This document shows positions 21,187 through 57,313 of a stretch of DNA of 61,223 nucleotides, piece after piece (position 1 is the first letter of the stretch; every line of letters begins with the position of its first letter). Position numbers and translations under genes: made by a program. The stretch is from the NCBI GenBank assembly GCA_017539165.1, contig JAFYHN010000033.1, positions 1 to 61,223 on the forward strand, in the 5' to 3' direction. Under the pieces are notes generated by a model. That model saw only the letters and a program-made list of their open reading frames with translations. It did not search any database and was not told the DNA's origin. The stretch is from Eubacterium sp. GTDB lineage: Bacteria > Bacillota > Clostridia > Lachnospirales > Lachnospiraceae.

Positions 21187-21228
21187 AAAATATGACAGTT
21201 GAAATCAGATTTCAACTGTCATATTTTT
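21187..21228. terminator. Dispersed palindromic terminator, copy 1
   Basis: AAAATATGACAGTTGAAATC and its reverse complement meet around a central A, giving a near-perfect palindrome of about 41 bp. It lies between the converging MalG-type permease and AraC genes and can terminate both strands. Four more copies lie at 34580, 45424, 49170 and 57269. Confidence 0.9.
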
Positions 21229-21231
21229 GTA

Positions 21232-22161
21232 TTATATGTTCTTGTGATCGTCGTTCTTATTAGAAAGGCGTATTTTTTTATACTCACTTGGTGTGTGGCT
21301 TGTATATTTTTTGAATGCCCTGCAGAAGGATGGAAGTGTGTTGAATCCTGTCTGGAAAGCTATATCTGTGATAGGTATATCCTTTATAAGCATTTCTTCG
21401 GCTACGCTGATCCTCTTTAGTGTCAGGTAATCGTGGAATGTATACCCTGTCTGAGCTTTGAAAACTCTTAAGAAGTGATACTTTGAAAAGCCGGTATATT
21501 CAGCGGCCTGTTCAGTGGAAATATCCTCTGCGTAGTTTATATTAACATACTTAAGAAGGGCATTTATCCTGCTTATAGTCTGAGATGAATTAATGGTTTC
21601 AGATTTGACTGCATTTTCAGAATGCTTTGCTATATCTATAAAAACCTGATACATCTTGTCGTATATGATCGTTTCCCAGAAATTTATATGCTTGAAGTAA
21701 GCAGCATTCATGTCCATGAATAGATTGTATACATTCTCATATATGTCAGGACATGTTTCCTGGTTACACAGAAATGCATCGAAGAACAGTGGTTCGATGG
21801 TTTTATAATCATGTGTATTAAAAAACTGATTCATCTCTATAAGGTAGATAAATCTGACTCCGTATTGATTATTTATATATTCATGAAGCATATGAGGAGG
21901 GATGATAAGTATATCCCCTTCATTTAGAAGATACTTCTTGTTGTTAGCATGAATCTCGTAGTTATTCTGGATACACAAAAAAACTTCAAGTGCATCGTGT
22001 GAATGAAGTTCATATCCTATAGGCTGGTTGTTATACCATATTCTAACGTGAGAAGAAGAGGTATAGGTTACCAGCTCTCTGTTATTACGTACTATTCGTC
22101 CCTCATATCCGTCCGGCTGTTTGTATTTATCCGGTACCACTCTTGACTCTTTAGCGGCCAA
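21232..22161 (-). CDS. AraC-family transcriptional regulator (cupin + HTH)
   Basis: The 309-residue protein has an N-terminal cupin-like sensor (LNEGDILIIPPHMLHEY near residues 80-94) and a C-terminal AraC HTH domain (about 195-300) with AAEYTGFSKYHFLRVFKAQTG as the first helix-turn-helix and ITDIAFQTGFNTLPSFCRAF as the second. It is convergent with the pentoside importer and is the best candidate for the factor that binds the 21-bp-spaced repeats upstream of the GH3, xylB and binding-protein genes. The inducer is probably a pentose or pentoside, by inference. Confidence 0.9.
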   Translation of the reverse strand: MAAKESRVVPDKYKQPDGYEGRIVRNNRELVTYTSSSHVRIWYNNQPIGYELHSHDALEVFLCIQNNYEIHANNKKYLLNEGDILIIPPHMLHEYINNQYGVRFIYLIEMNQFFNTHDYKTIEPLFFDAFLCNQETCPDIYENVYNLFMDMNAAYFKHINFWETIIYDKMYQVFIDIAKHSENAVKSETINSSQTISRINALLKYVNINYAEDISTEQAAEYTGFSKYHFLRVFKAQTGYTFHDYLTLKRISVAEEMLIKDIPITDIAFQTGFNTLPSFCRAFKKYTSHTPSEYKKIRLSNKNDDHKNI

Positions 22162-22291
22162 TTTATTATCCTCCCGGTTTTCTGAAATGGACTGTATTGC
22201 CTATAATAACAAAAATTGTTACTTTTTTCTAGTATGTACTACATTTTTATAAAAAAGTGTAAATTATAAACAAATTTTTATAAATGTCTGG

Positions 22292-22320
22292 TTGCTTTAA
22301 ATCGTTAAAATTAGTATAAT
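22292..22320 (+). promoter_or_regulatory. Promoter of the V-ATPase operon
   Basis: TTGCTT (22292-22297), 17 bp, TATAAT (22315-22320), about 60 nt before the first gene of the operon. Confidence 0.65.
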
Positions 22321-22382
22321 TGAATCTGTTGTTTTTATTAGAGATAAAAAAGAAACTATTGTTTTAGAAAGGAAATATTGCA

Positions 22383-22691
22383 GTGATAGAAGATGCTATG
22401 AAGGCTGTTGAATCTGCCGAAGCTGCTGCTTCTGAGTTGATACAGAAGGCTAAGACTGAGGCTGACGAGATTCGCAGATCCTCTGATAAAGAATGTGAGG
22501 ATATAAATGCCAAAGCAGTTCAGGATATGAAGTCAGCTGAAACGGCTCTCATTAAGGAACTTGAAGATAAGAGAGAGTCTTCTGCTGCAGATGCTGAAAA
22601 GTCAGCACAAGCTAAAGCTGAGGAACTTAAGAGTAGCCTCAGTTCAAAGCAGGCTGATGCTGTTAAGGCTGTATTGGAAAGACTAGTCTAA
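22383..22691 (+). CDS. V-type ATPase subunit H (peripheral stalk)
   Basis: The 102-residue product is almost entirely charged heptad-like coiled coil rich in Ala, Glu, Lys and Ser, as in the small G/H stalk subunits of prokaryotic V/A-ATPases that pair with subunit E. It starts with GTG 22383 behind AGAAAGGAAA. It is the first gene of the operon, 50 nt before subunit I, the usual place for ahaH/ntpF-like genes. Sequence similarity in such coiled coils is weak, so the name rests on size, composition and position. Confidence 0.8.
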   Translation: MIEDAMKAVESAEAAASELIQKAKTEADEIRRSSDKECEDINAKAVQDMKSAETALIKELEDKRESSAADAEKSAQAKAEELKSSLSSKQADAVKAVLERLV

Positions 22692-22741
22692 AACAAGGTC
22701 AGTGTAACTGACATAATAATAAAGAAAGGCGGGATTTCACA

Positions 22742-25221
<2,480 letters not shown>

Positions 25222-25222
25222 C

Positions 25223-25516
25223 ATCGTCGAAAGTAAGTAAGCAGACAAGCTTGCTTGTGCTGATTACTTACTTTATGACGATCAAAACAGCATGAGTGCG
25301 TAGTAGGTTTCTTGAAGAGAAACCTACGGAGTACGAATAGCTGTAGGAATTGTGAGAGCGAAGCGGAACAATTCCGTGCTATTTCAATAAATAAAGGTTG
25401 AAATTGCAGGAATTGATGGAGCGAAGCGGAACAATTCCGTGCTATTTCAATAAATAAAGGTTGAAATTGCAGGAATTGATGGGGCGAAGCGGAACAATTC
25501 CGTGCTATTTCAATAT
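25223..25516 (+). repeat. Hairpin array between ntpK and ntpE, with three 63-bp tandem repeats
   Basis: This 316-bp intercistronic region holds five stem-loops. The first is ATCGTC plus AAAGTAAGTAA pairing with TTACTTACTTT plus GACGAT (25223-25282). The second is GTAGGTTTCT / AGAAACCTAC (25303-25327). Then come three copies of a 63-bp unit (GGAATTG at 25346, 25409 and 25472), each a hairpin GGAATTG ... GAGCGAAGC ... CAATTCC flanked in the later copies by TTGAAAT / ATTTCAA. None has a terminator T-tract. The array is suited to stabilising ntpK mRNA or reducing downstream expression. No gene is seen here. Confidence 0.85.
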
Positions 25517-25537
25517 ATATCATAGAAAGGAGCCAAT

Positions 25538-26131
25538 ATGGCAGGCATTGAAAAGATTACAAATGAGATTCAGCTCGATGCTGAAAAAGAAGCTGCCGGA
25601 ATAATAGAAGCTGCTGAAAATGCAGCAAAAAAGGCTCGTGAAGATGCTATCCGTGAAAGTGAAGCATATATTAGTTCAGCTAATGAAAAGCTGGATAAGA
25701 AAAGAGCGGCAGAAGAAAAGAAAATCCTGTCACAGTGTGAACATATAGAGAAGCTTAAAATGCTTGAGACCAGACAGGAGATAATAGAAGATACACTTCT
25801 TAAGGCAAAGAATCAGATTCTTGATATGGATGCAAAGGAATACTTTGATCTAATCCTGTCTCTTCTGGAGAAGAGAGTACTGCCTGAGAAAGGTTTATTC
25901 GCAATGAACAGTGCTGATCTGAAACGTGTACCTGCGGATTTTGCTTCCAAGATCAATGCTATTGCTTCAAAAGATGGAGGAGAGCTTAGAATCTCAGATT
26001 CAGCAGCAAATATAAATGGTGGATTCATACTGAAGTATGGAAATATCGAGATCAATTCATCTGTTGATGCGCTCTTTGATGAGCATAGAGATGAATTCGT
26101 TGATATAGTTAATAAAGTATTATTTTTATAG
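25538..26131 (+). CDS. ntpE: V-type ATPase subunit E (peripheral stalk)
   Basis: The 197-residue protein begins with a long charged coiled coil (residues 5-90, many Ala, Glu, Lys) and ends in a small globular domain with GGFILKYGNIEINSSVDALFDEHRDE, which is typical of subunit E and its contact with the A3B3 head. AAAGGAG precedes ATG 25538. It would pair with subunit H to form the stator stalk. Confidence 0.9.
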   Translation: MAGIEKITNEIQLDAEKEAAGIIEAAENAAKKAREDAIRESEAYISSANEKLDKKRAAEEKKILSQCEHIEKLKMLETRQEIIEDTLLKAKNQILDMDAKEYFDLILSLLEKRVLPEKGLFAMNSADLKRVPADFASKINAIASKDGGELRISDSAANINGGFILKYGNIEINSSVDALFDEHRDEFVDIVNKVLFL

Positions 26132-26156
26132 ATAAAGCGATGATAGGAGACAGAAA

Positions 26157-27128
26157 ATGAGAGATGTAGATTACATCTACGCAGTTGCATGTATACGTGC
26201 AAAGGAAAAAACTCTGTTATCTGATTCAGACATTCAGACTATGGTCGGAATGAAGAGCGAAAAGGAAGTGCTGTCATATCTGAAGGAACGTGGCTGGGGC
26301 GATGGCTCAAGCAGTGAAGATATGGAAACTATCCTTAGCATTGAAGAAGAGGTTCAGATGAAACTTCTCACAACTCTCGGAGTAAGTGAAGATATTATCG
26401 ATGTTCTCTTCCTTCAGGAGCTTTATCACAATCTTAAGGCGGCAATCAAAGAAATATGTACCGGAAGAGATGATGTTGAAGCTTTCTACGAGAATGAAAA
26501 GTATGGAAAGGATTCTATGCTTAGAATTATCAGAGAGAAAGAATTCGATAAGCTTCCAGAGCATATGCAGGAGATAGCTCCAAAAGCACTTGAAGTCATG
26601 CTTTCTACCCGTGACGGACAAAAGCTTGATATCATGCTTGACCGAGCTTGTCTTGATGCAACTGAGAAGGCTGCGGTTTCAACAAAAGACAGATTCCTGT
26701 CTGAATATGCAGAGACCAAGGTTGTTATAGCTGATATAAAGATAGCGGTAAGAGCTGCAAATACGAAAAAACCGCTTAAGGTTATAGAGGAAGCACTGGC
26801 ACCAAATCGTGAATTCGATGTAAAGGGGCTTGCCAAGGCTGCTTCAGAGGGAACCAAAAGCGTATACGAATATCTGGAAAAGACAAAATACAAAGAAGCA
26901 GTGGATGCGCTTAGAGATTCATTCTCCGCTTTTGAAAAGTGGTGTGATGACTATGTTATGGGTAAGCTTATGAACCAGAAGACGAATATTCAGTCAAGCG
27001 GACCTATAGTTGCATTCTATCTTGCTAAGCAAAATGAGATAAGAACCGCAAGAATCATAATGACTGCAAAGGCTAATGGATTTGATGAGGAATCTATCTC
27101 GGAAAGGGTAAGGAAGATGTATGGATGA
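26157..27128 (+). CDS. ntpC: V-type ATPase subunit C/d (rotor socket)
   Basis: The 323-residue, mostly helical protein matches the d/C subunit that sits on the K ring and receives the central shaft: it begins RDVDYIYAVACIRAKEK, has EVLSYLKERGWGD-like sequence near residue 40, and ends ARIIMTAKANGFDEESISERVRKMYG. It overlaps the following F gene by eight bases (ATGGATGA), a sign of coupled translation. Confidence 0.9.
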   Translation: MRDVDYIYAVACIRAKEKTLLSDSDIQTMVGMKSEKEVLSYLKERGWGDGSSSEDMETILSIEEEVQMKLLTTLGVSEDIIDVLFLQELYHNLKAAIKEICTGRDDVEAFYENEKYGKDSMLRIIREKEFDKLPEHMQEIAPKALEVMLSTRDGQKLDIMLDRACLDATEKAAVSTKDRFLSEYAETKVVIADIKIAVRAANTKKPLKVIEEALAPNREFDVKGLAKAASEGTKSVYEYLEKTKYKEAVDALRDSFSAFEKWCDDYVMGKLMNQKTNIQSSGPIVAFYLAKQNEIRTARIIMTAKANGFDEESISERVRKMYG

Positions 27129-27450
27129 CGATAACAAGATAGCAGTTATCGGTGATTATGACAGTATCTATGGATTTGCCGCCCTGGGACTTAGCACATT
27201 TCCGGTGGAAGGTGAAGAAGATGCTGCAAGGATTCTTCGTAATCTGACAAGCAGTGGATATGGAATAATATATATCACCGAAGAACTGGCTGCGATATTA
27301 AAGAAACAGATTGAAAAATATAAGGAATCGATGACTCCAGCAATCATTCAGATTCCGGGCGTTAAGGGGAATACAGGCGACGGAATCATGGCTGTACGCC
27401 GTTCAGTAGAACAGGCTGTTGGATCTGATATCCTCTTCAGTGGAAACTAG
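27121..27450 (+). CDS. ntpG: V-type ATPase subunit F (central shaft)
   Basis: The 109-residue protein has the Rossmann-like fold pattern of subunit F: KIAVIGDYDSIYGFAALG at the N-terminus, GYGIIYITEELA near residue 55 and IIQIPGVKGNTGDGIMAVRRSVEQAVG at the end (in two conserved parts). It binds subunit D in the rotor shaft. The gene name varies (atpF, ntpG); placement between C and A is usual. Confidence 0.9.
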   Translation: MDDDNKIAVIGDYDSIYGFAALGLSTFPVEGEEDAARILRNLTSSGYGIIYITEELAAILKKQIEKYKESMTPAIIQIPGVKGNTGDGIMAVRRSVEQAVGSDILFSGN

Positions 27451-27475
27451 AAGTTAGAAAGGAGATACAGGCTCC

Positions 27476-29248: not shown

Positions 29249-30612
29249 TGGCTAAGGAATATCGTACTATACAGGAAGTGGCTGGACCACTTATGCTTGT
29301 AAAGGATGTAGAGAATGTAAAGTATGATGAACTTGGAGAAATCGAGCTTAGCTCCGGCGAGAAGCGTCGTTGCAAAGTTCTCGAGATAGATGGTTCTAAT
29401 GCCCTGGTACAGCTCTTCGAAAATGCAACAGGTATCAACCTTGAAAGCAGTAAAGTAAAGTTCCTGGGACGTTCCCTCGAGCTTGGTGTTTCAGGTGATA
29501 TGCTTGGACGTGTCTTCGACGGACTTGGACGTACAATAGATGGAGGCCCTGAGATTATCCCTGATGCTAGAATGGATATAAATGGTCTTCCTATGAACCC
29601 TGCTGCCAGAGCTTATCCGGAAGAGTTCATCGAGACAGGAGTTTCAGCAATCGATGGACTGAATACACTTGTTCGTGGACAGAAGCTTCCTATATTCTCA
29701 GCTTCAGGTCTTCCACATGCAAGACTTGCTGCTCAGATAGCTCGTCAGGCAAAGGTTAAAGGAACAAATGATGATTTCGCCGTTGTATTTGCTGCAATGG
29801 GTATCACATTCGAGGAGGCAAACTTCTTCGAGGAGTCATTCCGTGAGAGTGGAGCTATCGATAGAACAGTCCTCTTTATAAATCTTGCAAATGACCCTGC
29901 CGTTGAGCGTATATTAACACCTCGTATGGCACTTACAGCTGCTGAGTACCTTGCATTTGAAAAGGGTATGCATGTACTCGTTATCATGACAGATATTACA
30001 AACTACGCAGATGCTCTTCGTGAGATTTCTGCTGCTCGTAAAGAGGTTCCTGGACGTCGTGGATATCCAGGATACATGTACACTGACCTTGCTACAATGT
30101 ATGAGAGAGCAGGACGTCAGCGTGGAAAGAACGGATCTATAACTATGATTCCTATCCTTACCATGCCTGAGGATGATAAGACTCATCCTATCCCTGACCT
30201 TACAGGTTACATCACTGAGGGACAGATCATCCTTTCTCGTGAGCTTTACAGAAAGGGCATCACACCTCCAATCGATGTTCTTCCTTCACTTTCACGTCTG
30301 AAAGATAAGGGTATCGGTGAAGGAAAGACTAGAGCAGATCATGCTGCTACTATGAATCAGCTGTTCTCAGCTTATGCTCGTGGTAAGGAAGCTAAGGAGC
30401 TTATGGTTATCCTTGGTGAGGCAGCTCTTACAGAGATTGACCTTCAGTATGCTAAGTTTGCTGAGGAGTTTGAGAAGAAGTATGTATCTCAGGGATATGA
30501 GGCTGACAGAGATATTCAGGAGACACTGGATATTGGATGGGAGCTGCTGAGGATACTTCCTCGATCAGAGCTTAAGAGAATTAGTGATAAGTTCCTTGAT
30601 CAGTATTATTAA
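29248..30612 (+). CDS. ntpB: V-type ATPase subunit B
   Basis: The 454-residue non-catalytic subunit lacks a working P-loop ([19 protein letters not shown] near residue 150 in its place) and has the B-subunit signature [18 protein letters not shown] (about 270-287) and PSLSRL near 340. AAAGGAGG lies within the end of ntpA, 11 bases before the ATG. Downstream comes a 360-bp gap that contains a fold-back element rather than the next gene. Confidence 0.96.
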
Positions 30613-30623
30613 AATCTTTTAGA

Positions 30624-30950: not shown

Positions 30951-30972
30951 ATGTGGAATATGGAGATTGGAT

Positions 30973-34579: not shown

Positions 34580-34617
34580 TATGACAGTTGAAATCTGATT
34601 TCAACTGTCATATTTTT
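34580..34617. terminator. Dispersed palindromic terminator, copy 2
   Basis: TATGACAGTTGAAATC and its reverse complement meet around a central T, followed by TTTTT. It lies just after the AAA ATPase stop codon, between converging genes. Confidence 0.9.
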
Positions 34618-34674: not shown

Positions 34675-34720
34675 TTTAATTTAAACAAGAGCTTCAGTCC
34701 TACACAGGGCTGAAGCTCTT
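34675..34720 (-). terminator. Terminator of the pyruvyl transferase gene
   Basis: On the minus strand AAGAGCTTCAG / CTGAAGCTCTT (34720-34710 with 34697-34687) is followed by GTTTAAATT. The gene thus has its own terminator in addition to the shared palindrome. Confidence 0.75.
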
Positions 34721-34726: not shown

Positions 34727-35932
34727 CTACCAACCTAATTCATCTAATATCTCGAAGCAGCTGTTACTCTGGATTTCTTCCAGGCGATTCTGAATAACAG
34801 CTCTTTCCTGGTCGCGATTCTTAACCAGATAGTCTATAGCATCCATCCAAGGTTTATCATTAAAACTCTCTGATAGGATATCTATGAAATAGTTTTCCTG
34901 ATTCATTAGTTTTGCTAATTCTCTGTATCTTACTGTTGATCCGAGGACCAATCCTGGAATCAGATTCTTATATGCATGAACACATCCGTGATAACGTGAG
35001 CATACAACAAAATCAAAATATCTGATGATAAAATCATATTCAATACTATCGAATTCCTGTTCTATCAGATGTACATGATCATTATACGGGAACATAGCAG
35101 CTATCTTCTTGCATATTTCCAGATCTGAAGAAGAAAAACAGAATAGATATACTTCTTTTTTAGATTCGATCAGTTTTTCTATCAATCTGAAATAAAATGC
35201 ATAACTGTGGTTCAAAAGTTTTTTTGTAAAATAATGATTATTTGGAATTACAGCTACGTTATTGCCTTCTTTTATATCTGGAATGTTTGGTGTATATAAA
35301 GGCGAACATACATTTGTTATATTTAGGTCTTTAGTCTGTAATACAAGGTCTGCTGAACGTCTCAGGTTATCAAGACCAAAATATCCCATCAATTCATCGT
35401 AGCCATCTTCCTCACGTGCATAAACGGCTTTTGGATAGAATAGAAGATCCATCATTTCTTTTACGATATCCATGTTATCCAAGGAGTAATCCTTGAACGG
35501 ACCAAATGACTGTGGCATAAGTATCATAGGTATATTGAACTTTTTCGCTATTCTGATAGTATCCAGATAAGATTTGTGTTCTGCTAAGGTGCTTCTGTCT
35601 GTCAGGATCAGATCACTTATATCTATTATCAGATCTAACAGCGAGAATAGCTTTCGAATATCAATAGTTGAACCATCATCCTTCTTGCGGATCATCTGGG
35701 ATATGTTAGTAAGAATACTAGTACCTTTTCCCAGTATCAGATCCTGATATTGTCTTGTATATGGCACTTTAATGAATCTGTAATCTGATTCATTGTACTG
35801 TTCGCCATTACAAGCAAAATAAACCTGACAATCATTGAATCGTTTCTTTAACATATCGGTCACAACAAAAAGCTTTGATTGAGATCCTTTATCTTTGAAA
35901 CTGCCCCCTACTACAAGTATTTTCTTTCCCAT
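34727..35932 (-). CDS. Polysaccharide pyruvyl transferase family protein
   Basis: The 401-residue protein has the two-domain GT-B-like pattern of the family, with a Gly-rich N-terminus (ILVVGGSFKDKGSQ), ILMPQSFGPFKDYS near residue 135, YAREEDGYDEL near 175 and the hallmark VCSRYHGCVHAYK near 315-327. Members add ketal pyruvate to cell-wall or exopolysaccharide sugars, and some act as glycosyltransferase-like enzymes. It is not in a polysaccharide gene cluster here, so the acceptor is unknown. It is transcribed alone, divergent from the TetR gene. Confidence 0.85.
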   Translation of the reverse strand: MGKKILVVGGSFKDKGSQSKLFVVTDMLKKRFNDCQVYFACNGEQYNESDYRFIKVPYTRQYQDLILGKGTSILTNISQMIRKKDDGSTIDIRKLFSLLDLIIDISDLILTDRSTLAEHKSYLDTIRIAKKFNIPMILMPQSFGPFKDYSLDNMDIVKEMMDLLFYPKAVYAREEDGYDELMGYFGLDNLRRSADLVLQTKDLNITNVCSPLYTPNIPDIKEGNNVAVIPNNHYFTKKLLNHSYAFYFRLIEKLIESKKEVYLFCFSSSDLEICKKIAAMFPYNDHVHLIEQEFDSIEYDFIIRYFDFVVCSRYHGCVHAYKNLIPGLVLGSTVRYRELAKLMNQENYFIDILSESFNDKPWMDAIDYLVKNRDQERAVIQNRLEEIQSNSCFEILDELGW

Positions 35933-44675: not shown

Positions 44676-44678
44676 GAC

Positions 44679-45414: not shown

Positions 45415-45423
45415 TAAAAAAGG

Positions 45424-45460
45424 TGACAGTTGAAATCTGATTTCAACTGTCATATTTTTT
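45424..45460. terminator. Dispersed palindromic terminator, copy 3
   Basis: TGACAGTTGAAATC and its reverse complement meet around a central T and are followed by TATTTTTTA. It lies between converging upp and the DUF975 gene. The left flank reads AAGGTGACAG instead of ATATGACAG, so this copy is slightly shorter. Confidence 0.9.
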
Positions 45461-45483: not shown

Positions 45484-46623
45484 TTATTCTAAACCGAATG
45501 GCTTGTCATTTCCTGTATTTGGTTCCTGACCATAGAATGCATCAGGATTTGTATTCTGCTGAGGAGCAACCGGCTGACCGTATGGATCCTGAGGAGCAGT
45601 AGGCTGTCCGTATGGATCCTGAGGAGCAACTGGCTGACCGTATGGATCTTGCTGAGGAGCAACTGGCTGACCGTATGGATCTTGCTGAGGAGCAACTGGC
45701 TGACCATATGTATTCTGCTGAGGAGTATATGGCTGGCCGTATCCATTTGGCTGCTGATATCCGGCAGGCTGACCATATCCAGTAGCCTGAGGGTTGTAAC
45801 CGCCTGGCTGTGCATATCCGGTAGCCTGAGGATTATAACCACCTGGCTGACCGCCGAAGTTTCCATATCCACCTGCAAATCGTACCTGATGATATGGTGG
45901 AACTCCAGGTCCGAAATGCTTACCTCTAATATCGAGGAAAAGCTCAGCCTCTGTAGCATACATATATGGAGTGACATAGAGCAGAAGAAGAAGTCCACAT
46001 GTGAATAAACCAGCGATAATCCATCCGATGAATGAAAGCTCAAGAATAAATGTATCCATCTTGTAGCCATCCATCATCTGTTTGCTCTGATCAAGAGCCT
46101 CCTGCCAGGTAAGTGTTGGATCTTCAGAAAGTATATACTCAACCAAGTAGTACTGATACGCTTTTATGATACCCGGTATAATAAGTAAAAGACTCCAGAG
46201 GAATATAAAAAGGTTCTTCATGAACATAACCTTAACGATGTTAATGTAACGTCCTTCTTTAAATGCATATCCCAGTTCACCGAAGTCGGCCCTTTCAAAA
46301 GAATTGACTGAAAAAAATCTTTTACTGCCAACAATAAGAGGATTAACAACGAAAATACTAAAAATTATAACAAAAATTGAAGCTATCATTAATATCATAG
46401 CCATTGCAGCAGTCATCGGAGTATAATGTAGCCCATATCCATAATGGAATATACCTGAACCTCCACTATAGTCATAAGTTTCTTGTCCGCTTTGTGAGAT
46501 ACGGCTCGTAAAGCTGGATCCGCTGCTGACTAATCCGATGATAAAAGTAACAGCAACACATAGCCAGTAATTATTTTTAAAGGCGGCAAGTCCTCGAGCC
46601 TTTAATTCCGGTCTGTTAATCAT
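45484..46623 (-). CDS. DUF975 membrane protein with Pro/Gln/Tyr-rich repeat tail
   Basis: The 379-residue protein has a DUF975-type membrane part of about five helices in residues 15-235, then a cytoplasmic or surface tail of about 130 residues. The tail is built from repeats of the form YGQPVAPQQDP, preceded by GGYNPQATGY repeats. Such low-complexity Pro/Gln/Tyr tails are often disordered or sticky. DUF975 proteins have no known activity. AAAGGAGG precedes the ATG on the minus strand. An 18-bp perfect palindrome lies about 40 bp upstream. Confidence 0.82.
   Translation of the reverse strand: MINRPELKARGLAAFKNNYWLCVAVTFIIGLVSSGSSFTSRISQSGQETYDYSGGSGIFHYGYGLHYTPMTAAMAMILMIASIFVIIFSIFVVNPLIVGSKRFFSVNSFERADFGELGYAFKEGRYINIVKVMFMKNLFIFLWSLLLIIPGIIKAYQYYLVEYILSEDPTLTWQEALDQSKQMMDGYKMDTFILELSFIGWIIAGLFTCGLLLLLYVTPYMYATEAELFLDIRGKHFGPGVPPYHQVRFAGGYGNFGGQPGGYNPQATGYAQPGGYNPQATGYGQPAGYQQPNGYGQPYTPQQNTYGQPVAPQQDPYGQPVAPQQDPYGQPVAPQDPYGQPTAPQDPYGQPVAPQQNTNPDAFYGQEPNTGNDKPFGLE
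45545..45735 (-). repeat. In-frame tandem repeats in the DUF975 gene
   Basis: About five to six copies of a 27-33 bp unit (coding for YGQPVAPQQDP and the shorter YGQPTAPQDP) are nearly identical at DNA level, so copy number may vary by slippage or recombination. All copies keep the reading frame. Confidence 0.85.
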
Positions 46624-48220: not shown

Positions 48221-48234
48221 GAGAAAGAAACCGT

Positions 48235-49170
48235 ATGTATTATTTTATTGTTAACTATATGGGTGGCGGCGGAAAAGCCAGAAAAACATGGAATAGAGTT
48301 CACCATCTACTGAAGGAAAAACAGATTGAATATAAGGCCTACGTGACAAAGTATCCGGGACATGCAGGAGAGCTTGCCGCTAAGATATCTAGTCTTGAAG
48401 AAGATGATATAAGACTTATCGTAGTAGGTGGAGATGGCAGTATCAATGAGGTACTCAACGGAATAGTAGATTTTGAAAAGATAAGATTCGGAGTAATCCC
48501 AACTGGTTCGGGAAATGATTTCGCCAGAGGACTTGGTATAACTAAGGATCCTGATAAGGCACTAGATAACATACTTTCTTCTGTCGAGGGAAGAACTATA
48601 GATCTTGGAGTTGTTACTACAGGTTCTGGAATAAGAAGAATATTCGGAATCAGTTCAGGAATCGGCCTGGATGCGATTGTATGTAAGAAGGCTCTGACAT
48701 CAAAGCTTAAGAAGGCTATGAATAAACTCGGAATGGGAAGCCTTACTTATATACTTCTTACTGTAGCTACTTTATTCTCTATGGAAACATATGATGTAAG
48801 AGTTAGAATGAGTGCAGATGAGGGAAGTCTTGGTGATATCAATTATTTTGATAAGCTCATATTCTTTGCGGCTATGAATACATTTGCAGAGGGTGGCGGA
48901 GTTCCAATGAATCCTAAGGCCAGACCGGATGACGGACGTCTTTCAACCTGTGCAGTTTCAGGAATACCGAAATGGAGAACATTCTTTATGCTTCCTGTCC
49001 TTGTGAAAGCTAAGCATGAGGGAAAGAAAGGATTCTATCTGGGAGAGGTCAGCAGCGTGACCTTCGATGCAGACAGACCGATGGTACTGCATGCGGATGG
49101 AGAGTACATCGATGATACAACTCATATTGATGTAGATATTCTTAAAGGTGTTTTGAATGTTATGATATAA
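48235..49170 (+). CDS. Diacylglycerol kinase-family lipid kinase (YegS/DgkB type)
   Basis: The 311-residue protein opens YYFIVNYMGGGGKARKTW and has the kinase signature VVGGDGSINEVLNGI (about residues 62-76) and VIPTGSGNDFARGL (about 86-99), hallmarks of the DAGK_cat fold. The C-terminal half has the DGKB-type beta sandwich. It phosphorylates a lipid such as diacylglycerol at the membrane. It lies 14 nt behind uraA, and its stop codon touches palindrome copy 4. Confidence 0.92.
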   Translation: MYYFIVNYMGGGGKARKTWNRVHHLLKEKQIEYKAYVTKYPGHAGELAAKISSLEEDDIRLIVVGGDGSINEVLNGIVDFEKIRFGVIPTGSGNDFARGLGITKDPDKALDNILSSVEGRTIDLGVVTTGSGIRRIFGISSGIGLDAIVCKKALTSKLKKAMNKLGMGSLTYILLTVATLFSMETYDVRVRMSADEGSLGDINYFDKLIFFAAMNTFAEGGGVPMNPKARPDDGRLSTCAVSGIPKWRTFFMLPVLVKAKHEGKKGFYLGEVSSVTFDADRPMVLHADGEYIDDTTHIDVDILKGVLNVMI

Positions 49171-49212
49171 AAAATATGACAGTTGAAATCTGATTTCAAC
49201 TGTCATATTTTT
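49170..49212. terminator. Dispersed palindromic terminator, copy 4
   Basis: The longest perfect copy: AAAAATATGACAGTTG... pairs base for base with ...CAACTGTCATATTTTT around a central T, 43 bp in all. It lies between the converging lipid kinase and DUF4173 genes. Confidence 0.92.
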
Positions 49213-49225
49213 CTTATCGAGCAAA

Positions 49226-50785: not shown

Positions 50786-50832
50786 TGTTTCCTCCTGTTA
50801 AATGATTTTTCCCTCCACTAAAGTTTTATGTG

Positions 50833-51030
50833 TTATCTATGTTCCAGAATGTCTCCAGGTTGACATTCGAGAATTTCGCATATTTTATCAAGTGTTTCAA
50901 ATCGTACTGCTTTAGCTTTACCATTTTTTAGAATTGAAATGTTAGCCAGCGTGATTCCAACCTGTTCTGCCAGATCAGAAACTTTCATCTTACGCTTTGC
51001 CAGCATAACATCGAGATTAACTATTATCAT
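50833..51030 (-). CDS. Small XRE-family transcriptional regulator (YozG type)
   Basis: The 65-residue protein is a bare Cro/CI-type helix-turn-helix: KVSDLAEQVGITLANISILK (about residues 16-35) then FETLDKICEILECQPGDIL. AGGAGG precedes the ATG. It is separated by 11 nt from the DUF2975 gene; this pairing is conserved in Firmicutes (YoaS/YozG in Bacillus) and the HTH protein probably controls its own operon. Confidence 0.93.
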   Translation of the reverse strand: MIIVNLDVMLAKRKMKVSDLAEQVGITLANISILKNGKAKAVRFETLDKICEILECQPGDILEHR

Positions 51031-51041
51031 GCCGACACCTC

Positions 51042-51521
51042 CTAGATTGTAAGTTCATTTTCTTGCTTGATTTCGTAAGCGTTTTGTACCAGCCTAGACA
51101 TCGCATAGCAAAGAATGACAAATATAATAAAAACAACAATTTTAAGTAAAGTATATGAAAGTTGGATAAATCCCATTTCGTTTTTAAATAACCATACAAA
51201 GATTGATATGATATTCTCGATAATGATGAGAACTCCGCATATACCAATGTTTTTAAAGTTCTTTGCATTTTCCATGGAAAATGAATTCTCGTTGCCAATC
51301 TCTTTTACTATTCTCCAGAAGAAGTAGAGAATTACGTAACAGATGATTGCGGTTATCCAGAGGCCTATAATGTTCTGCCTTAGATAAACTGGAAGCGGGT
51401 CATTATAGTCTGGCTTGAAATAGAAGCCATAGGCGGTTGCGCCGCCGAAGAATGCCAGGCCAAGCAGTCCGATAGAAACAACTACTGCCTTAAGCCAGTA
51501 AGTAATTGAGTTTTCTTTCAT
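51042..51521 (-). CDS. DUF2975 membrane protein
   Basis: The 159-residue protein has four predicted membrane helices and ends with the motif NAYEIKQENELTI typical of DUF2975 proteins that are encoded just upstream of a small XRE regulator. The function is not known. It starts at ATG 51521 behind GAGGGAAATG-type sequence and is the first gene of the DUF2975-XRE-DUF4173 unit. Confidence 0.85.
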   Translation of the reverse strand: MKENSITYWLKAVVVSIGLLGLAFFGGATAYGFYFKPDYNDPLPVYLRQNIIGLWITAIICYVILYFFWRIVKEIGNENSFSMENAKNFKNIGICGVLIIIENIISIFVWLFKNEMGFIQLSYTLLKIVVFIIFVILCYAMSRLVQNAYEIKQENELTI

Positions 51522-51652
51522 GACATTTCCCTCGTTTCTTTGTTTGATGAGGTGATTATATTACACCTAAAATTGAATGTCAAGAAAAATATATCGCAAA
51601 ACGATAAAAAATATTTGAAAAGCAGAAAAAGATTATTGTTTTTATCTTGGTT

Positions 51653-51681
51653 TTGACTTTTAGCATGGCGTAGTTTATACT
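51653..51681 (+). promoter_or_regulatory. Promoter of the copper ATPase gene
   Basis: TTGACT (51653-51658), 17 bp, TATACT (51676-51681). I found no CopY-type TACAnnTGTA box and no clear CsoR site next to it, so how copper controls this gene is not visible. Confidence 0.75.
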
Positions 51682-51746
51682 TGTTAGAGATGTTTAACGC
51701 ATAGGCGCTAATGCTGCTGATCACAGGCTTTATGAGATAAGAATAA

Positions 51747-54401
51747 ATGAAAAAATATGAGATAACAGGTATGAGCTGTGCTGCTTGTCAGGCCAGAGTA
51801 GAGAAGGCTGTTTCCAAAGTCGAAGGCGTAGAAAGCTGTTCGGTAAGTCTTCTTACGAACTCGATGGGCGTGAATGGCACGGCTGATGATAAAGATATAA
51901 TAGAAGCAGTTGAAAAGGCGGGCTACGGCGCGTCTGTTTTTGGTGGTGCTGAAAGATCAAAGAATGGTTTGAATGGAATAGAAGACATGGAAGAAGCTCT
52001 TAGGGATAAGGATTCGCCTGTCATTGTTAAACGTCTTATCAGTTCCGTTGTTGTTCTTGTGATTCTTATGTACTATTCAATGGGACATATGATGCTGGGA
52101 TGGCCGGTTATATTTCCTGTCTTCGAAAATCATGTTGCTTTGGCGACACTTGAGATGCTTCTGGCCATAATAGTAATGGTCATAAATAAAAAGTTTTTTA
52201 ACAGTGGATTTACTTCGCTGATTCACGGATTTCCTAATATGGATACACTTGTGGCTTTAGGAAGTACAGCTTCTTTTGGTTATAGTCTTGTAGTTCTATT
52301 TCTCATGATAGAAGCTATGGGACGACATGACATGGATATGGTCATGCGATACTCTATGAATCTATATTTTGAATCTGCTGCAATGATTCCTACTCTTATT
52401 ACAGTAGGAAAACTTCTTGAAGCTAAATCAAAAGGCAGGACTACAGATGCTCTTAAGAGTCTTATGAAACTTGCGCCTAAAGAGGCTGTTCTTGAAAGTG
52501 AAGATTTTGAAACACTTGTTCCGATTGAGGATGTAAAGCCCGGGGATATCTATATCCTGAAGGCGGGAGATATAGTTCCAGTAGATGGTGTGATCATAAG
52601 TGGAAGTTCTGCTCTCAATGAGGCGGCGCTTACGGGAGAGAGTATCCCCGTTGATAAGACAGAGGGAGATACAGTTTCTGCCGGTACCATAAATACAAAT
52701 GGATATCTCAGATGCAGGGCTACGAGAGTAGGAGAAGATACAACACTTTCGCAGATTATTCAGATGGTCGGTGATGCAGCGGCAACAAAAGCACCGCTTG
52801 CAAGGATAGCAGATAAGGTTTCTGCAGTATTTGTTCCGGCTGTAATCGCTCTGGCTGTTATTACATTTGCCGTGTGGATGGTGATAGGGAAGGATGTCAG
52901 TTTCTCAATCGCGAGGGCCATCTCGGTTCTGGTGATCAGCTGTCCTTGTGCGCTTGGACTTGCGACTCCTGTAGCAATAATGGTTGGAAATGGAATGGGA
53001 GCGAAGCATGGTATCCTATATAAGACGGCAGAAGTTTTGGAAGAAGCCGGAAGAGTTGGCGTGGTTGTTCTGGATAAAACGGGAACTATTACTAAAGGAA
53101 CCCCGGGAGTTACAGATATAGAAAAGGCGGAAGGTATCTCGCAGGATGATTTTCTGCAAATGGCTTATAGTCTGGAGAAAAGATCGGAACATCCATTGGC
53201 AAAGGCGATAGTGGAGTATTCTGAAGATGGTATTGCTGGTTTACATAATACCAAGCTGGAGGCGGGCGAACTGGTTGATTTTGAAACATTACCCGGGGCT
53301 GGTGTTAGAGGCAAAGACTCATCCGGAAGATTTTTGGAGGCCGGAAGCTTTTCATATATGATGAGTGTATTAAATATTGAAGATGATCAGGAAAGCTATA
53401 TCCAGGAAAAGTGTGAAGAGCTTGCATCTGAAGGAAAGACGCCGCTTGTATTTGCATCTGATAAGAAGTTTATGGGGATTATTGCTGTAGCTGATCTGAT
53501 TAAAGAGGACAGCGCAGATTCGATAGAAGAACTCAGGGGAATGGGCATCAGAACAGTTATGCTGACCGGAGATAATGAGATAACAGCCAAAGCGGTGGCT
53601 CAGAAAGCTGGAGTTGACGATGTGATAGCCGGAGTTATGCCGGAAGATAAGGAAAATGTCATCTCAAAACTCCAGGAAGTGACATTTGGTAAAAAGAAAC
53701 TTAAGGTGGCTATGGTAGGTGATGGTATCAATGATGCACCTGCATTGACAAGAGCTGATATCGGAATTGCAATCGGAGCAGGGACCGATGTCGCTATTGA
53801 TGCAGCGGGTGTGGTTCTGATGAAGAGCAGTCTGAAGGATGTGGCCGGTGCGATAAGAATGAGTCGGGCAACTATCAGGAATATTCATGAGAATCTGTTC
53901 TGGGCATTTTTCTATAATGCTCTATGTATACCCCTTGCTATGGGAGTATATGGTATAGCGATGAAACCTATGTATGGAGCTGCAGCGATGGCCTTATCGA
54001 GCTTCTTTGTATGTATGAATGCACTGAGGTTGAATCTGGTAAATATTCATGATTCAGGAAGAGATAGAGCTCCGTCAGAACTCAGAACAAGTGAATTAAA
54101 AGAAAGTATTGATAACGTAATCGAAACAATAAAACTGAAAAAACAGGAAAAGCTGGAAAAACAAGAACAAAACGAAAAAGGAGACAAAATGATGACAAAG
54201 ACACTTAAGATTGAAGGTATGATGTGTGGACACTGTGAGGCTACTGTTAAGAAGGCTCTTGAGAAGATAGATGGAGTAACTGAAGCGGTGGTAAGCCATG
54301 AACAGGGAACAGCAGTGGTTACATTTGATAGTGAAGTAGCTGATGAAGTTTTAAAAACAGCTGTAGAGGATAAAGATTACACAGTTCTCTCTATTGAATA
54401 A
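51747..54401 (+). CDS. copA: Copper-translocating P-type ATPase with C-terminal CopZ-like domain
   Basis: The 884-residue P1B-ATPase has an N-terminal HMA domain with GMSCAACQARVEKAV, eight predicted helices, the intramembrane metal motif SCPCALGLATP (about residue 395), phosphorylation Asp443 in VLDKTGTITKGTPG and hinge GDGINDAPALTRADIG (about 655). It exports Cu(I). Unusually, after a charged Lys/Glu/Gln linker (about 790-814) a second HMA domain with EGMMCGHCEATVKKAL follows at the extreme C-terminus. AAAGGAG just before in-frame ATGs at 54189/54192 could start that domain separately. The gene start has only a weak ribosome site. Confidence 0.95.
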   Translation: MKKYEITGMSCAACQARVEKAVSKVEGVESCSVSLLTNSMGVNGTADDKDIIEAVEKAGYGASVFGGAERSKNGLNGIEDMEEALRDKDSPVIVKRLISSVVVLVILMYYSMGHMMLGWPVIFPVFENHVALATLEMLLAIIVMVINKKFFNSGFTSLIHGFPNMDTLVALGSTASFGYSLVVLFLMIEAMGRHDMDMVMRYSMNLYFESAAMIPTLITVGKLLEAKSKGRTTDALKSLMKLAPKEAVLESEDFETLVPIEDVKPGDIYILKAGDIVPVDGVIISGSSALNEAALTGESIPVDKTEGDTVSAGTINTNGYLRCRATRVGEDTTLSQIIQMVGDAAATKAPLARIADKVSAVFVPAVIALAVITFAVWMVIGKDVSFSIARAISVLVISCPCALGLATPVAIMVGNGMGAKHGILYKTAEVLEEAGRVGVVVLDKTGTITKGTPGVTDIEKAEGISQDDFLQMAYSLEKRSEHPLAKAIVEYSEDGIAGLHNTKLEAGELVDFETLPGAGVRGKDSSGRFLEAGSFSYMMSVLNIEDDQESYIQEKCEELASEGKTPLVFASDKKFMGIIAVADLIKEDSADSIEELRGMGIRTVMLTGDNEITAKAVAQKAGVDDVIAGVMPEDKENVISKLQEVTFGKKKLKVAMVGDGINDAPALTRADIGIAIGAGTDVAIDAAGVVLMKSSLKDVAGAIRMSRATIRNIHENLFWAFFYNALCIPLAMGVYGIAMKPMYGAAAMALSSFFVCMNALRLNLVNIHDSGRDRAPSELRTSELKESIDNVIETIKLKKQEKLEKQEQNEKGDKMMTKTLKIEGMMCGHCEATVKKALEKIDGVTEAVVSHEQGTAVVTFDSEVADEVLKTAVEDKDYTVLSIE
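54189..54401 (+). CDS. copZ: Possible separately translated CopZ-like copper chaperone within copA
   Basis: The last 70 codons of copA encode a complete HMA domain with the metal site MMCGHCEATVKKAL and the usual ferredoxin-like fold length. GGAG at 54180-54183, within AAAAAGGAG, lies five and eight bases before ATG 54189 and ATG 54192, in frame with copA. That is a fully formed start signal inside a coding region. A free CopZ-sized chaperone is therefore likely in addition to the fused form; only the sequence signal is seen. Confidence 0.6.
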   Translation: MMTKTLKIEGMMCGHCEATVKKALEKIDGVTEAVVSHEQGTAVVTFDSEVADEVLKTAVEDKDYTVLSIE

Positions 54402-54465
54402 ACTCAGCGAAACAAGTATAATAAACCCGTTGTGATCAACAAATAAATCTAGAAGGAGAATGCAC

Positions 54466-55647
54466 ATGGTAAATAAGATAACAGATAGCATAGTATATGT
54501 CGGAGTTGATGACAGAGATATCGATCTCTTTGAAAGTCAGTATATAGTACCAGAAGGTGTTTCATACAATTCATATGTTGTTCTTGATGAGAAGACAGCA
54601 GTATTTGATACAGTTGACGCTCATAAGACAGATGAATGGCTTGCAAATGTCAAGGAAGCTCTTGGAGGAAGAGAACTTGACTATATTATCGTACAGCATA
54701 TCGAGCCTGATCATTCTGGATCTTTTGAAGCGGCTGTAAATGAATTTCCTAATGCCAAGATCGTTGGAAATGCCAAGACATTTTCACTGCTTCCACAGTT
54801 CTTTGATGTAGATATCGAAGATAGAAAGGTTGTTGTAAAAGAAGGAGATGAACTGTCTCTTGGTTCTCATACATTTCAGTTCATACTTGCTCCAATGGTT
54901 CATTGGCCAGAAGTAATGGTAACATATGAGAAGAGTGAGAAGATTCTTTTCTCAGCTGATGGATTCGGTAAGTTTGGAGCACTCGACTTTGATGATCCGG
55001 AAGGATGGGCATGTGAGGCAAGAAGATATTACTTCGGAATCGTTGGAAAGTACGGAATGCCTGTACAGACACTACTTAAGAAAGCAGCTACTCTTGATAT
55101 AGAGAAGATACTTCCACTTCACGGACCAGTACTTCCTATGCCAGGAGATGATCTCTCATATTATATTGAGACATACAATACATGGAGCAGCTATGAGCCT
55201 GAGACACATGGAGTTTTTGTAGCATATGCTTCAATCCATGGCAATACTGGTGTAGCGGCTAAGAAGCTTGCTGAGATGCTCGAGGCAAAGGGTGAGAAAG
55301 TTGCTATAGCGGATCTCTGTCGTGAGGACATCGCTGAATGTGTAGAGGATGCTTTCAGATATGACAGAATGGTACTTTGTGCATCAAGTTATGACGGTGG
55401 AGTATTCCTTCCGATGCATGACTTCCTCACACATCTTACATACAAGACATATCAGAACAGAAAGGTTGCACTTCTCGAGAATGGAACTTGGGGACCTACT
55501 GCAGCCAGAACTATGAAAGGTATCATCGAGAACTGGAAGAACGTTGAGATTCTTGATCCTGTTGTGACTATAAAATCCAAGATGAAAGACAGCGATATAC
55601 CTAATATCGCAGCTTTAGCAGATGCAGTAGTAGCAGCAGGAAAGTAA
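54466..55647 (+). CDS. Flavodiiron protein (FprA-type oxygen/nitric oxide reductase)
   Basis: The 393-residue protein has an N-terminal metallo-beta-lactamase-like domain with the diiron ligand motif HIEPDHSG (His78, Glu80, Asp82, His83), ADGFGKFG near 165 and HGPVLP near 222, followed by a flavodoxin domain from about 252 (VFVAYASIHGNTGVAAKK). Such proteins reduce oxygen or nitric oxide to protect anaerobes. ATG 54466 is preferred because AAGGAG (54453-54458) leaves seven bases; ATG 54460 is too close. A terminator follows. Confidence 0.95.
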   Translation: MVNKITDSIVYVGVDDRDIDLFESQYIVPEGVSYNSYVVLDEKTAVFDTVDAHKTDEWLANVKEALGGRELDYIIVQHIEPDHSGSFEAAVNEFPNAKIVGNAKTFSLLPQFFDVDIEDRKVVVKEGDELSLGSHTFQFILAPMVHWPEVMVTYEKSEKILFSADGFGKFGALDFDDPEGWACEARRYYFGIVGKYGMPVQTLLKKAATLDIEKILPLHGPVLPMPGDDLSYYIETYNTWSSYEPETHGVFVAYASIHGNTGVAAKKLAEMLEAKGEKVAIADLCREDIAECVEDAFRYDRMVLCASSYDGGVFLPMHDFLTHLTYKTYQNRKVALLENGTWGPTAARTMKGIIENWKNVEILDPVVTIKSKMKDSDIPNIAALADAVVAAGK

Positions 55648-55663
55648 GATTTATAAGGCTTTT

Positions 55664-55695
55664 AAGTACCAGGGGAAATGTCCCTGGTACTTTTA
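55664..55695 (+). terminator. Terminator after the flavodiiron gene
   Basis: AAGTACCAGGG / CCCTGGTACTT with loop GAAATGT is followed by TT and a T-rich region. Confidence 0.85.
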
Positions 55696-55851
55696 TGTTG
55701 TGCTATTTTCACAGTATTTTTTGGATTATTTTTTTTCTTTTTTACTTTTTTTAATCGGGTACTTGTGTTACTATGTTTTTCTGGAATGAATTTTCCTATA
55801 GATAGTTATAACTGACGTTTATACGTAAAATAAATAATTAGGAGTATAACA

Positions 55852-57270
55852 ATGGGCGGATTTTTTGCTACGGCACTTAAAGGAGATGCAGTCTTTGATC
55901 TCTTCTACGGAACTGATTATCATTCACACCTTGGTACAAGAAGAGCAGGTATGGTAGTGCACGGAAGAGAAGGTTTCAATCGTGCGATACACAATATCGA
56001 AAATGCTCCATTTAGAAGCAAGTTTGGCGCTGATGTACATGAGATGGAAGGAAACCTTGGAATCGGATGTATATCGGATTATGATCCACAGCCGCTCCTT
56101 GTTCGATCACATCATGGTACATATGCCATAACATGTGTAGGTAAGATTAACAATACTGATGAACTGATTGCTGAAGTATTTAAAAATGGCGGATCACATT
56201 TTCAGATGATGAGCTCAGGTGAAGTGAATAAGACTGAGCTTACAGCAGCACTCATTAATCAGGAAGACAATCTCATCGAAGGTATCAAGCATGCGCAGGA
56301 TAGAATCGATGGTTCTATGACGATAATTCTTCTCACACAGGATGCTATATATCTTGCACGTGATAAGTATGGTCGTACTCCTATCATTATCGGAAAGAAA
56401 GATGGAGAGGGATATTGTGCGGCATTTGAATCTTTCTCTTATCTGAATCTTGGATATAAAGATTATAAAGAACTTGGTCCCGGGGAGATAGACGTTATGA
56501 CTCCGGAAGCTGTAACAGTTATGGAAAAACCGGGAGAGAAGATGCGTATATGTACATTTCTCTGGGTGTACTATGGTTATCCTTCAGCAAGATACGAGGG
56601 TGTTTCAGTTGAGGAAATGCGTTACAGATGCGGTGAGGCTCTTGCTAGAAGAGATGGTTTCGGACGTAATGATATCGATGCAGTTGCAGGTGTTCCTGAT
56701 TCAGGTACAGCACATGCTATGGGATATGCAAATGAATCCGGAGTTCCGTTCTCCAGACCATTTATTAAGTATACACCAACATGGCCTAGATCATTCATGC
56801 CAACACATCAGGATAAGAGAAATCTCATCGCAAAGATGAAGCTTATCCCGGTTCATGAATTGATCGACGGAAAGAAGCTCCTTCTTATTGATGATTCAAT
56901 CGTCAGAGGTACACAGCTTCGTGAAACAACAGAATTCTTATACGAAAGTGGTGCAAAAGAGGTACATATCAGACCGGCATGTCCTCCATTACTTTTTGGA
57001 TGTAAGTATATTAACTTCTCCAGATCTAATTCTGATATGGAACTTATAGCAAGACGTGTGATAGCTGAGGAAGAGGGAGAGCAGGTTGAGAGAACAGTTC
57101 TTGATGACTATGCAAATCCAGATTCTGACAGATACCATCTCATGCTTGAGAAGATCAGACAGAAGCTGAACTTCACTTCGCTTGCATTCAATAGACTTGA
57201 TGATATGATAGAAGCTACAGGAATAGACAGAGATAAGCTCTGTACATATTGCTGGGACGGAAGAGAATAA
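55852..57270 (+). CDS. PurF-like phosphoribosyltransferase lacking the glutaminase cysteine
   Basis: The 472-residue protein aligns by eye with amidophosphoribosyltransferase along its length. The PRPP loop LLLIDDSIVRGTQLR (about residues 345-360) is intact. Cysteines in the places of the Bacillus PurF iron-sulfur ligands remain (MRICTFLW, LFGCKYI, CTYCWDG). But the start is MGGFF instead of MCGVF, so the catalytic N-terminal Cys is Gly, and the Arg-Tyr-Ser/Thr and Asn-Gly motifs of the glutamine site are also missing. It may use free ammonia, another amine, or act in another pathway. A purF paralogue elsewhere is expected. The start at 55852 follows TTAGGAG; no upstream in-frame alternative restores the Cys. 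Confidence 0.85.
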   Translation: MGGFFATALKGDAVFDLFYGTDYHSHLGTRRAGMVVHGREGFNRAIHNIENAPFRSKFGADVHEMEGNLGIGCISDYDPQPLLVRSHHGTYAITCVGKINNTDELIAEVFKNGGSHFQMMSSGEVNKTELTAALINQEDNLIEGIKHAQDRIDGSMTIILLTQDAIYLARDKYGRTPIIIGKKDGEGYCAAFESFSYLNLGYKDYKELGPGEIDVMTPEAVTVMEKPGEKMRICTFLWVYYGYPSARYEGVSVEEMRYRCGEALARRDGFGRNDIDAVAGVPDSGTAHAMGYANESGVPFSRPFIKYTPTWPRSFMPTHQDKRNLIAKMKLIPVHELIDGKKLLLIDDSIVRGTQLRETTEFLYESGAKEVHIRPACPPLLFGCKYINFSRSNSDMELIARRVIAEEEGEQVERTVLDDYANPDSDRYHLMLEKIRQKLNFTSLAFNRLDDMIEATGIDRDKLCTYCWDGRE

Positions 57271-57313
57271 AAAAGATGACAGTTGAAATCTGATTTCAAC
57301 TGTCATCTTTTTT
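57269..57313. terminator. Dispersed palindromic terminator, copy 5
   Basis: AAAAAGATGACAGTTG... pairs with ...CAACTGTCATCTTTTT around a central T. Compared with the other copies a T-A pair next to ATGACAG is replaced by G-C on both arms, a compensating change. It overlaps the ends of the converging PurF-like and deaminase genes. Confidence 0.92.

Follow-up and report, generated by a model that had tools for sequence, protein, structure and literature searches.

Species-specific palindromes resembling two-way terminators at gene ends of Eubacterium sp. and related genomes

Results

Five near-identical palindromes at convergent junctions of the window

The window analysed here is the whole of a 61,223-nucleotide (nt) stretch of DNA from Eubacterium sp. 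(Lachnospiraceae; GenBank assembly GCA_017539165.1, contig JAFYHN010000033.1), which is contig C20 of the genome designated G000, and our subject is a short palindrome that recurs at the ends of its genes. Open reading frames and gene junctions were called with a simple custom caller, which gave 6 convergent, 36 tandem, and 6 divergent junctions in the window. A scan for the half-site GACAGTTGAAATC, with two mismatches allowed, yielded 10 matches, all of them exact, arranged as five inverted pairs around a single base (21194-21220, 34583-34609, 45425-45451, 49178-49204, and 57278-57304), while single matches in 100 dinucleotide shuffles averaged 2.3, with a maximum of 7. The element is found at five of the convergent junctions and at none of the tandem or divergent ones, and an unrelated ACTGAGTG hairpin occupies the remaining convergent junction (1366/1403). 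The features concerned are the following:

21187 to 21228, copy 1: AAAATAT GACAGTTGAAATC A GATTTCAACTGTC ATATTTTT; convergent junction 21156/21232
34580 to 34617, copy 2: TAT GACAGTTGAAATC T GATTTCAACTGTC ATATTTTT, right-hand T-tract only; convergent junction 34574/34727
45416 to 45460, copy 3: AAAAAAGGT GACAGTTGAAATC T GATTTCAACTGTC ATATTTTTT, 3' of the UPRTase gene; convergent junction 45414/45484
49169 to 49212, copy 4: AAAAAATAT GACAGTTGAAATC T GATTTCAACTGTC ATATTTTT, A-tract overlapping the stop codon; convergent junction 49170/49226
57269 to 57313, copy 5: AAAAAAGAT GACAGTTGAAATC T GATTTCAACTGTC ATCTTTTTT; convergent junction 57270/57312
34687 to 34720: ordinary hairpin adjacent to copy 2, outside the family; serves the minus-strand gene ending at 34727
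1385 to 1417: two-way hairpin of the ordinary kind, outside the family; sixth convergent junction

A previous, sequence-only reading of the window had described five near-identical palindromes at five of six convergent junctions, a different terminator at the remaining one, a compensating base pair in copy 5, and a centre of A or T. The half-site scan and the gene calls confirmed this description: in copy 5, GAT...ATC replaces TAT...ATA, and the central base is A in copy 1 and T in copies 2-5. The 16-nt arm that it had written is inexact for copy 3, which starts with GGT. Each unit runs from an A-tract through TAT, GAT, or GGT, the two arms, and ATA or ATC to a T-tract, apart from copy 2, where the left A-tract is missing and the adjoining minus-strand gene has its own ordinary hairpin. 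An Rfam scan of the window at the gathering threshold gave four matches, none of which falls at the palindromes.

The palindrome recurs past gene ends throughout the genome

The genome G000 comprises 112 contigs with 3,201,553 bases (99.54% complete). Allowing at most three mismatches, it contains 67 palindromes (reversed control, 0), along with 108 exact half-sites and 61 instances of the core TGAAATCTGATTTCA (control, 0 for both). We examined 878 kb of this genome, comprising most of contig C70 and all of C22 (both irrespective of copies), the window, and stretches picked around other copies; C70, C22, and the window are hereafter the contigs taken whole. Within these 878 kb there are 65 copies at up to four mismatches, 45 of them exact 27-mers, and four places at six to seven mismatches are overlaps within arrays. 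Nearly all copies (63 of 65) are situated past the 3' end of a gene, and their junctions are tandem in 37 cases, convergent in 26, and divergent in 2. The palindrome had been proposed as a mark of convergent junctions, a claim that fails since 37 of the 65 classified copies are tandem, and the convergent-only impression is thus peculiar to the window; by the refuting condition set beforehand, the convergent idea falls and that of a special sequence does not. On the contigs taken whole, 8 of 19 convergent junctions hold the element, as do 6 of 304 tandem ones, and the 19 divergent ones have none. The convergent share is higher than that of hairpin-bearing tandem ends (6 of 54, p 0.006), but without the window the difference is not significant (3 of 13 versus 6 of 45, p 0.4, computed with 6 of 46).

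Among the 37 tandem copies, 31 are closer to the upstream stop than to the next start, at a median of 19 nt from that stop, and T occupies at least four of six positions of the downstream tract, again in 31. The predicted folding energy of the 63 oriented copies averages -14.0 kcal/mol for the core and -20.9 kcal/mol with 9-nt flanks. Judged by sequence, the palindromes look like intrinsic terminators, mostly two-way ones, at which transcription would end. On the contigs taken whole, 87 of 251 tested gene ends have a good hairpin with a T-tract, and 65 of these 87 are not the element (two-way hairpins counted twice, once per side). By eye, these ordinary stems are mutually different with few exceptions: two stems in C70 are alike, and a hairpin at C22:22504 has the outer ATGACAGT in common with the element around a different centre. 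Ordinary bidirectional terminators of Firmicutes likewise have a stem, A- and T-tracts, and one hairpin for two convergent genes; the difference is that their stems vary in G000, whereas the palindrome family repeats one sequence. An upstream A-tract, which serves the reverse direction only, accompanies 32 of the 37 tandem copies but is rarer at ordinary tandem terminators (10 of 48; p 1e-9). The central base has no clear sense-strand bias in the tandem copies (T in 21, A in 16).

Ordinary terminators that are alike by chance or through common hairpin constraints would share the position, the hairpin, and the T-tract seen here. Such likeness is nevertheless refuted as the source of the sequence identity by the 45 exact 27-mers and the empty reversed control, and we give it hardly any credence, as the arms of the element are also lower in G+C than ordinary stems (0.38 versus 0.46), and no 8-mer occurs in more than two perfect hairpins in 400 kb of the related genome G004 or 140 kb of G022.

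The half-site pattern TGACANNTGAAATC occurs 135 times in the 878 kb; 131 of these lie at known pairs, the other four make up two pairs with a 3-nt centre (C44:143 and C85:143), and none of the 135 is solitary. This bears on a DNA uptake signal doubling as terminator, which the sequence-only reading had offered. The DNA uptake sequences (DUS) of Neisseriaceae, as described in PMC1852404 and PMC3630211, resemble the palindrome in that inverted pairs of one short sequence serve as terminators, with one version (dialect) per species, related versions in related species, and more than one version in some genomes. DUS counts given in PMC3630211 are 2245-5918 per genome, with intragenic ones common, while G000 has 108 exact half-sites, no solitary ones in the examined sample, a fixed one-base centre, and a Firmicutes-type genome. 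An uptake signal is accordingly disfavoured, and we consider it very improbable.

Two other recurring sequences were recorded separately. A structured repeat of ~100 nt (GGATGCGTCTCGGCGC ... GACACTCTTT), without an Rfam match, directly adjoins three palindromes on C106, C109, and C58, and similar stretches also occur in the related genome G029. The sequence TTATGTAAAC, which we take to resemble the XerD arm of the Gram-positive dif site, recurs intergenically (for example at window 14705; 11 of 27 occurrences away from copies lie between genes), and was rejected as a part of the element because only 2 of 29 TATGTAAAC occurrences are close to a copy.

Sequence conservation goes beyond base pairing

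The letters of the arms do not change evenly. T-GACA is unchanged in both arms of all 65 copies and GAAATC has changes in only 4 pair cells, while positions 5-6 are changed in 23 of 130 pair cells versus 4 of 780 at the other 12 positions (p 7e-17), with 8 of the 23 changes symmetric. The same holds on the contigs taken whole, where all 15 copies are within four mismatches and the four changed cells are all at positions 5-6. At flank position -2, both arms have T in 47 copies and G in 14, and the two arms differ in 4. Sequence conservation beyond base pairing, as previously claimed, is therefore real, with GACA and the preceding T invariant and the changes piled up at positions 5-6. As for the protein-binding site suggested along with it, this pattern supports a recognised sequence but does not demonstrate one.

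Base pairing was assessed by re-dealing the right arms among the copies of one species and comparing the natural energy or pairs with those of the re-deals. None of 60 re-deals reached the natural energy in G000, and in G029 none of 200 reached the natural pairing in either the 29-nt or the 31-nt class. In a strict-pairing test of re-paired halves, the 28-nt class of G029, whose halves are unequal in length, was taken as uninformative. In two species at least, base pairing is thus either under selection or copied from arm to arm. The centre in G029 and G019 has no clear sense-strand bias either (wobble versus mismatch orientation, 12 to 6).

Related genomes carry their own versions at some of the same junctions

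Complete copies in related genomes were sorted by core type, namely GAAATC-W-GATTTC, GAAYC-W-GRTTC, TTCAYC-W-GRTGAA, and GAACAAAAGTTC. In this order, the counts are 61/0/0/0 in G000, 15/0/0/0 in G021, 0/41/1/2 in G029, and 0/3/14/1 in G019, and the stretches of G028, G022, and G004 contain no complete copies. G021 has the core of G000 with different flanks, the three bases outside GACA being TAT in 83 and GAT in 27 of 122 cases in G000 and GTG in 27 of 30 in G021 (in a full list of 25 G021 copies, including weaker ones, GTG precedes GACA or GATA in 17). G029 and G019 have their own cores, with GAT in this outer position in 62 of 88 and 29 of 36 cases, respectively. The versions have in common (T/G)GACA at the base followed by variable positions, and the centre is usually YC-W-GR. 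The scans of placement and variability in G029, G019, and G021 required the base block and the centre type, and conservation there is by construction. With A/T-rich flanks required as well, 41 of 44, 29 of 29, and 16 of 19 copies, respectively, lie past 3' ends, and 21 of 22, 18 of 18, and 9 of 12 tandem copies are nearer to the upstream stop. The most variable position in G021 and G019 is also directly behind the base block that the script pattern required.

The versions can be compared at orthologous junctions, although sharing of sites is overstated except on whole contigs, since the G019 stretches, most of the G029 ones, and those of G000 other than C70, C22, and the window were chosen around copies. 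At the end of the UPRTase gene (window 45425), the sequence is TGACAGTTGAAATCTGATTTCAACTGTCA in G000, TGACAGATTGAACCTGATTCAATCTGTCA in G029, TGACACTTTTTCATCTGATGAAAAAGTGTCA in G019, and TGACAAAGCCGTTTTGAACAGCTTTGTCA in G028, and G022 and G004 have other hairpins. Further G000 copies are matched in G029 (window 57278, C65:11510, C63:4489, and C89:43201), in G019 (window 49178, window 21194, C70:57730, and C89:42899), or in both (C6:5607). Unmatched are window 49178, window 21194, C7:20740, C64:46089, and C70:3693 in G029, C73:14405 in G019, window 57278 in G028 and G022, and the aligned junctions of G004. Ten junctions of G000 and G021 placed side by side have the palindrome in both genomes in eight cases and in G021 only in two; on the G000 contigs taken whole, two of four G021 junctions are common. 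One G021 junction with two palindromes corresponds to the window gene end at 61005, where G000 has another hairpin. The finding of distinct versions in related species, in part at shared sites, suggests a role for the letters as such beyond the formation of a hairpin.

For the mobile cassette that had also been proposed, no positive evidence emerged: some junctions are occupied in relatives by a version of their own, the genome has no Y1 (IS200/RAYT-type) match, and the exact pattern has 0 matches in viral contigs, by which a viral source was rejected. Copying in place is nevertheless possible. A specific form of this idea is a repetitive extragenic palindrome (REP), or its inverted doublet (REPIN), copied by a Y1 transposase (RAYT). 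REPs are intergenic, species-specific palindromes in tens to hundreds of copies that can terminate transcription, and in REPINs a diverse spacer separates two inverted REPs, singlets being remnants of such pairs, according to PMC8049555; Y1 transposases are present in 36 of the 61 genus genomes. The palindromes are intergenic too, with tens to over a hundred copies per genome, but the element has neither a variable spacer nor the singlets of that description, and it has strict 3'-end placement and A/T tracts. Matches to PF01797 (Y1_Tnp) number 0 in G000, by which Y1 copying was rejected there, 0 in G019 and G021 (78% and 58% complete), and 4 in G029. As with the uptake signal, the defining features fail (the transposase, spacer, and singlets here; the solitary sites there), and we hold the REPIN explanation to be quite unlikely. 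Sets with other middles in G012 (GGGGACAGGCACC) and G006 (GAGGGACAGGTAC) are perhaps a different kind of repeat. In G012, a TGACA-based repeat with the GGGGACAGGCACC middle lies ~370 nt from a Y1_Tnp match (C142:11790-11833 and C142:12202-12531), and a REP-like link is possible in that genome because of this proximity.

Copy number varies within one clade

The exact version is narrowly distributed. At up to three mismatches, it is found among the 61 genus genomes 67 times in G000, 28 times in G021, once in G044, and in no others, and a sample of 397 genomes of the family (two from the genus) has it, at up to one mismatch, in G000 only. A collection of 84,980 species, from whose scan the own genome was possibly left out, contains 15 stretches with the G000 version; 14 come from Eubacterium sp. 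RGIG8178, a metagenome-assembled genome (MAG) of the water-buffalo rumen that corresponds to G021, and the last is a lone ACGACAAATGAAATC-type hairpin in an Opitutales MAG, which we take for chance. A wide spread of the exact version was rejected on the basis of these two samples.

A motif-free listing of perfect hairpins in stretches of five relatives uncovered the G029 family, such as AAAAATATGACAGTTTGAACCTGATTCAAACTGTCATATTTTT. The pattern ATGACA-N9..35-TGTCATMTTTT, summed over both strands, occurs 173 times in G029, 130 in G019, 96 in G000, 7 in G021, and 0-11 times in each of the other 57 genus genomes (reversed control, 4 over all 61), and no genome but G000 exceeds 4 in the family sample. 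The pattern TGACA-N9..30-TGTCANNTTTT is found in G029 (280), G019 (241), G000 (109), G046 (106), G022 (84), G028 (76), G035 (37), G012 (29), G004 (28), G021 (20), G043 (16), G006 (15), G041 (14), G007 (11), and G025 (10), with 0-9 in the rest. Its reversed control, which never exceeds 4 per genome, does not probe the hairpin requirement, and the rank of 5-mers at the base of the stem is a fairer control. By this measure, TGACA is the top 5-mer of A/T-flanked inverted pairs in unguided stretches of G000 (13), contig C21 of G029 (6), and, narrowly, G028 (4), with one match in the 140 kb of G022 and none in the 400 kb of G004.

A LigA tree of 22 genus genomes places G000 and G021 as sisters (support 100) inside a seven-genome clade (99) with G029, G043, G042, G026, and G047, while G028, G004, and G007 belong to another clade (99). 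LigA was not found in G019; the UPRTase of this genome is 92% identical to that of G000. Since rich and poor genomes share one clade, copy number has changed more than once.

Discussion

A probable repeated terminator with a putative reader

The element would be a repeated intrinsic terminator, usually two-way, in which two inverted 13-nt arms around a single base sit just 3' of stop codons, and the transcript of either strand would end in a hairpin and a U-tract by virtue of the flanking A- and T-tracts. A second constraint would act on the letters, keeping the (T/G)GACA base, a mid-arm particular to the species, and in most cases a YC-W-GR centre, with variable positions just behind the base. 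A putative sequence-specific factor, either a DNA-binding protein or one acting with the terminating polymerase, would read this dyad, and the set of sites and its putative reader would have changed together in different species. We favour this reading of two-way terminators under a second, sequence-level constraint, with a probability of roughly 0.55; such a reader probably exists, and its co-evolution with the sites is proposed. More tentatively, a trans factor in several species of one Firmicutes-type genus may recognise (T/G)GACA-nn ... YC-W-GR ... nn-TGTC(A/C) at operon ends, with whole sets of sites switching dialect along with the factor, as a form of sequence-specific termination or 3'-end marking.

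The main rival is concerted copying without a reader, in which recombination, template switching, or slow duplication would homogenise the set, and species versions would be the drift of self-copying units that are tolerated, or useful, as terminators. We consider this possible, though less likely than a reader. It is favoured by the 45 of 65 exact copies and the species-pure cores, by flanks that differ between G000 and G021 at six of eight common junctions, by the retention of the whole symmetric unit, A-tract included, at tandem sites, and by extra half units in tandem, as from slippage of the palindrome, at C104:11883, C109:11519, C31:40155, and C31:41882 (another extra half-site is at C44:66886). 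However, instead of being scattered along the unit, the changes fall at positions 5-6, the position behind the required base block is the most variable in G021 and G019 too, and the listed G000 copies have no homology beyond the unit and its tracts. A reader in trans accounts best for the fixed versus the free positions, copying accounts for the uniformity and the half-unit duplications, and the two may both act.

Several observations weigh against the favoured reading. Both the uniformity and the versions peculiar to each species would be expected under concerted copying as well; the analysis turned up no factor, and we infer both the reader and the termination. The invariance of position 7 in the 65 copies is partly a selection effect and is overstated because stretches were partly chosen by a core that includes this position, and two copies outside the set (C6:36195 and C31:4856) have it changed with compensation. 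The two copies at divergent junctions are not terminators of any flanking gene as called; one of them, C65:27605, lacks A/T tracts and is therefore not terminator-like, its palindrome continuing as CCT(T)AGGT...ACCTAGG. On C21 of G029, which was picked for the UPRTase gene, only three of seven G000 copies with a flank aligned within 150 nt are matched. The flanks of G021 at the eight common junctions have not all switched (GTG in 4, GTT in 2, GAT in 1, and TAT in 1, the last copy carrying GGCA). Natural pairing in G021 is better than re-dealt pairing by pair counts (3 of 200) but not by energy (47 of 200). The pairing in G019 is not clearly above chance (energy 19, pairs 75, and strict pairs 133 of 200), with no excess in strict pairing of re-paired halves; an energy test with mixed length classes gave 0 of 60 but was not upheld in single classes, and the common half-site sequence accounts for the pairing in this genome.

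Relation to known repeats

Textbook intrinsic terminators are taken to be judged by stem strength and U-tract and recognised by shape, with their sequence free. EFAR-type repeats of Enterococcus faecalis, a low-G+C Gram-positive bacterium, have also been proposed as two-way terminators.

Stem-loop repeat families of 40 genomes are described in PMC2267715, and uptake-sequence dialects and terminators in PMC3630211 and PMC1852404; the palindromic terminator family of G000 is undescribed in the titles and abstracts of the open-access literature searched. What is new is the comparative part, in which some orthologous junctions have a different version in each species. The recurrence of the same letters in dozens of terminators per genome, and of other letters in relatives at part of these sites, constitutes a natural experiment on what is read at operon ends besides the hairpin or, alternatively, on the means by which short sequences that lack a known transposase stay uniform in a chromosome. 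If true, reading by a trans factor would amount to sequence-specific termination, in contrast to recognition by shape.

Other features of the window

A Clostridiales-1 RNA match (RF01699) at 25216-25384 overlaps three 63-nt tandem repeats at 25342-25530. A minus-strand DUF975 gene has in-frame repeats of 30-33 nt at 45520-45758. The first part of a match to a group II intron (RF02001), cut off by the end of the contig, lies at 61175-61223, not far past the gene that ends at 61005.

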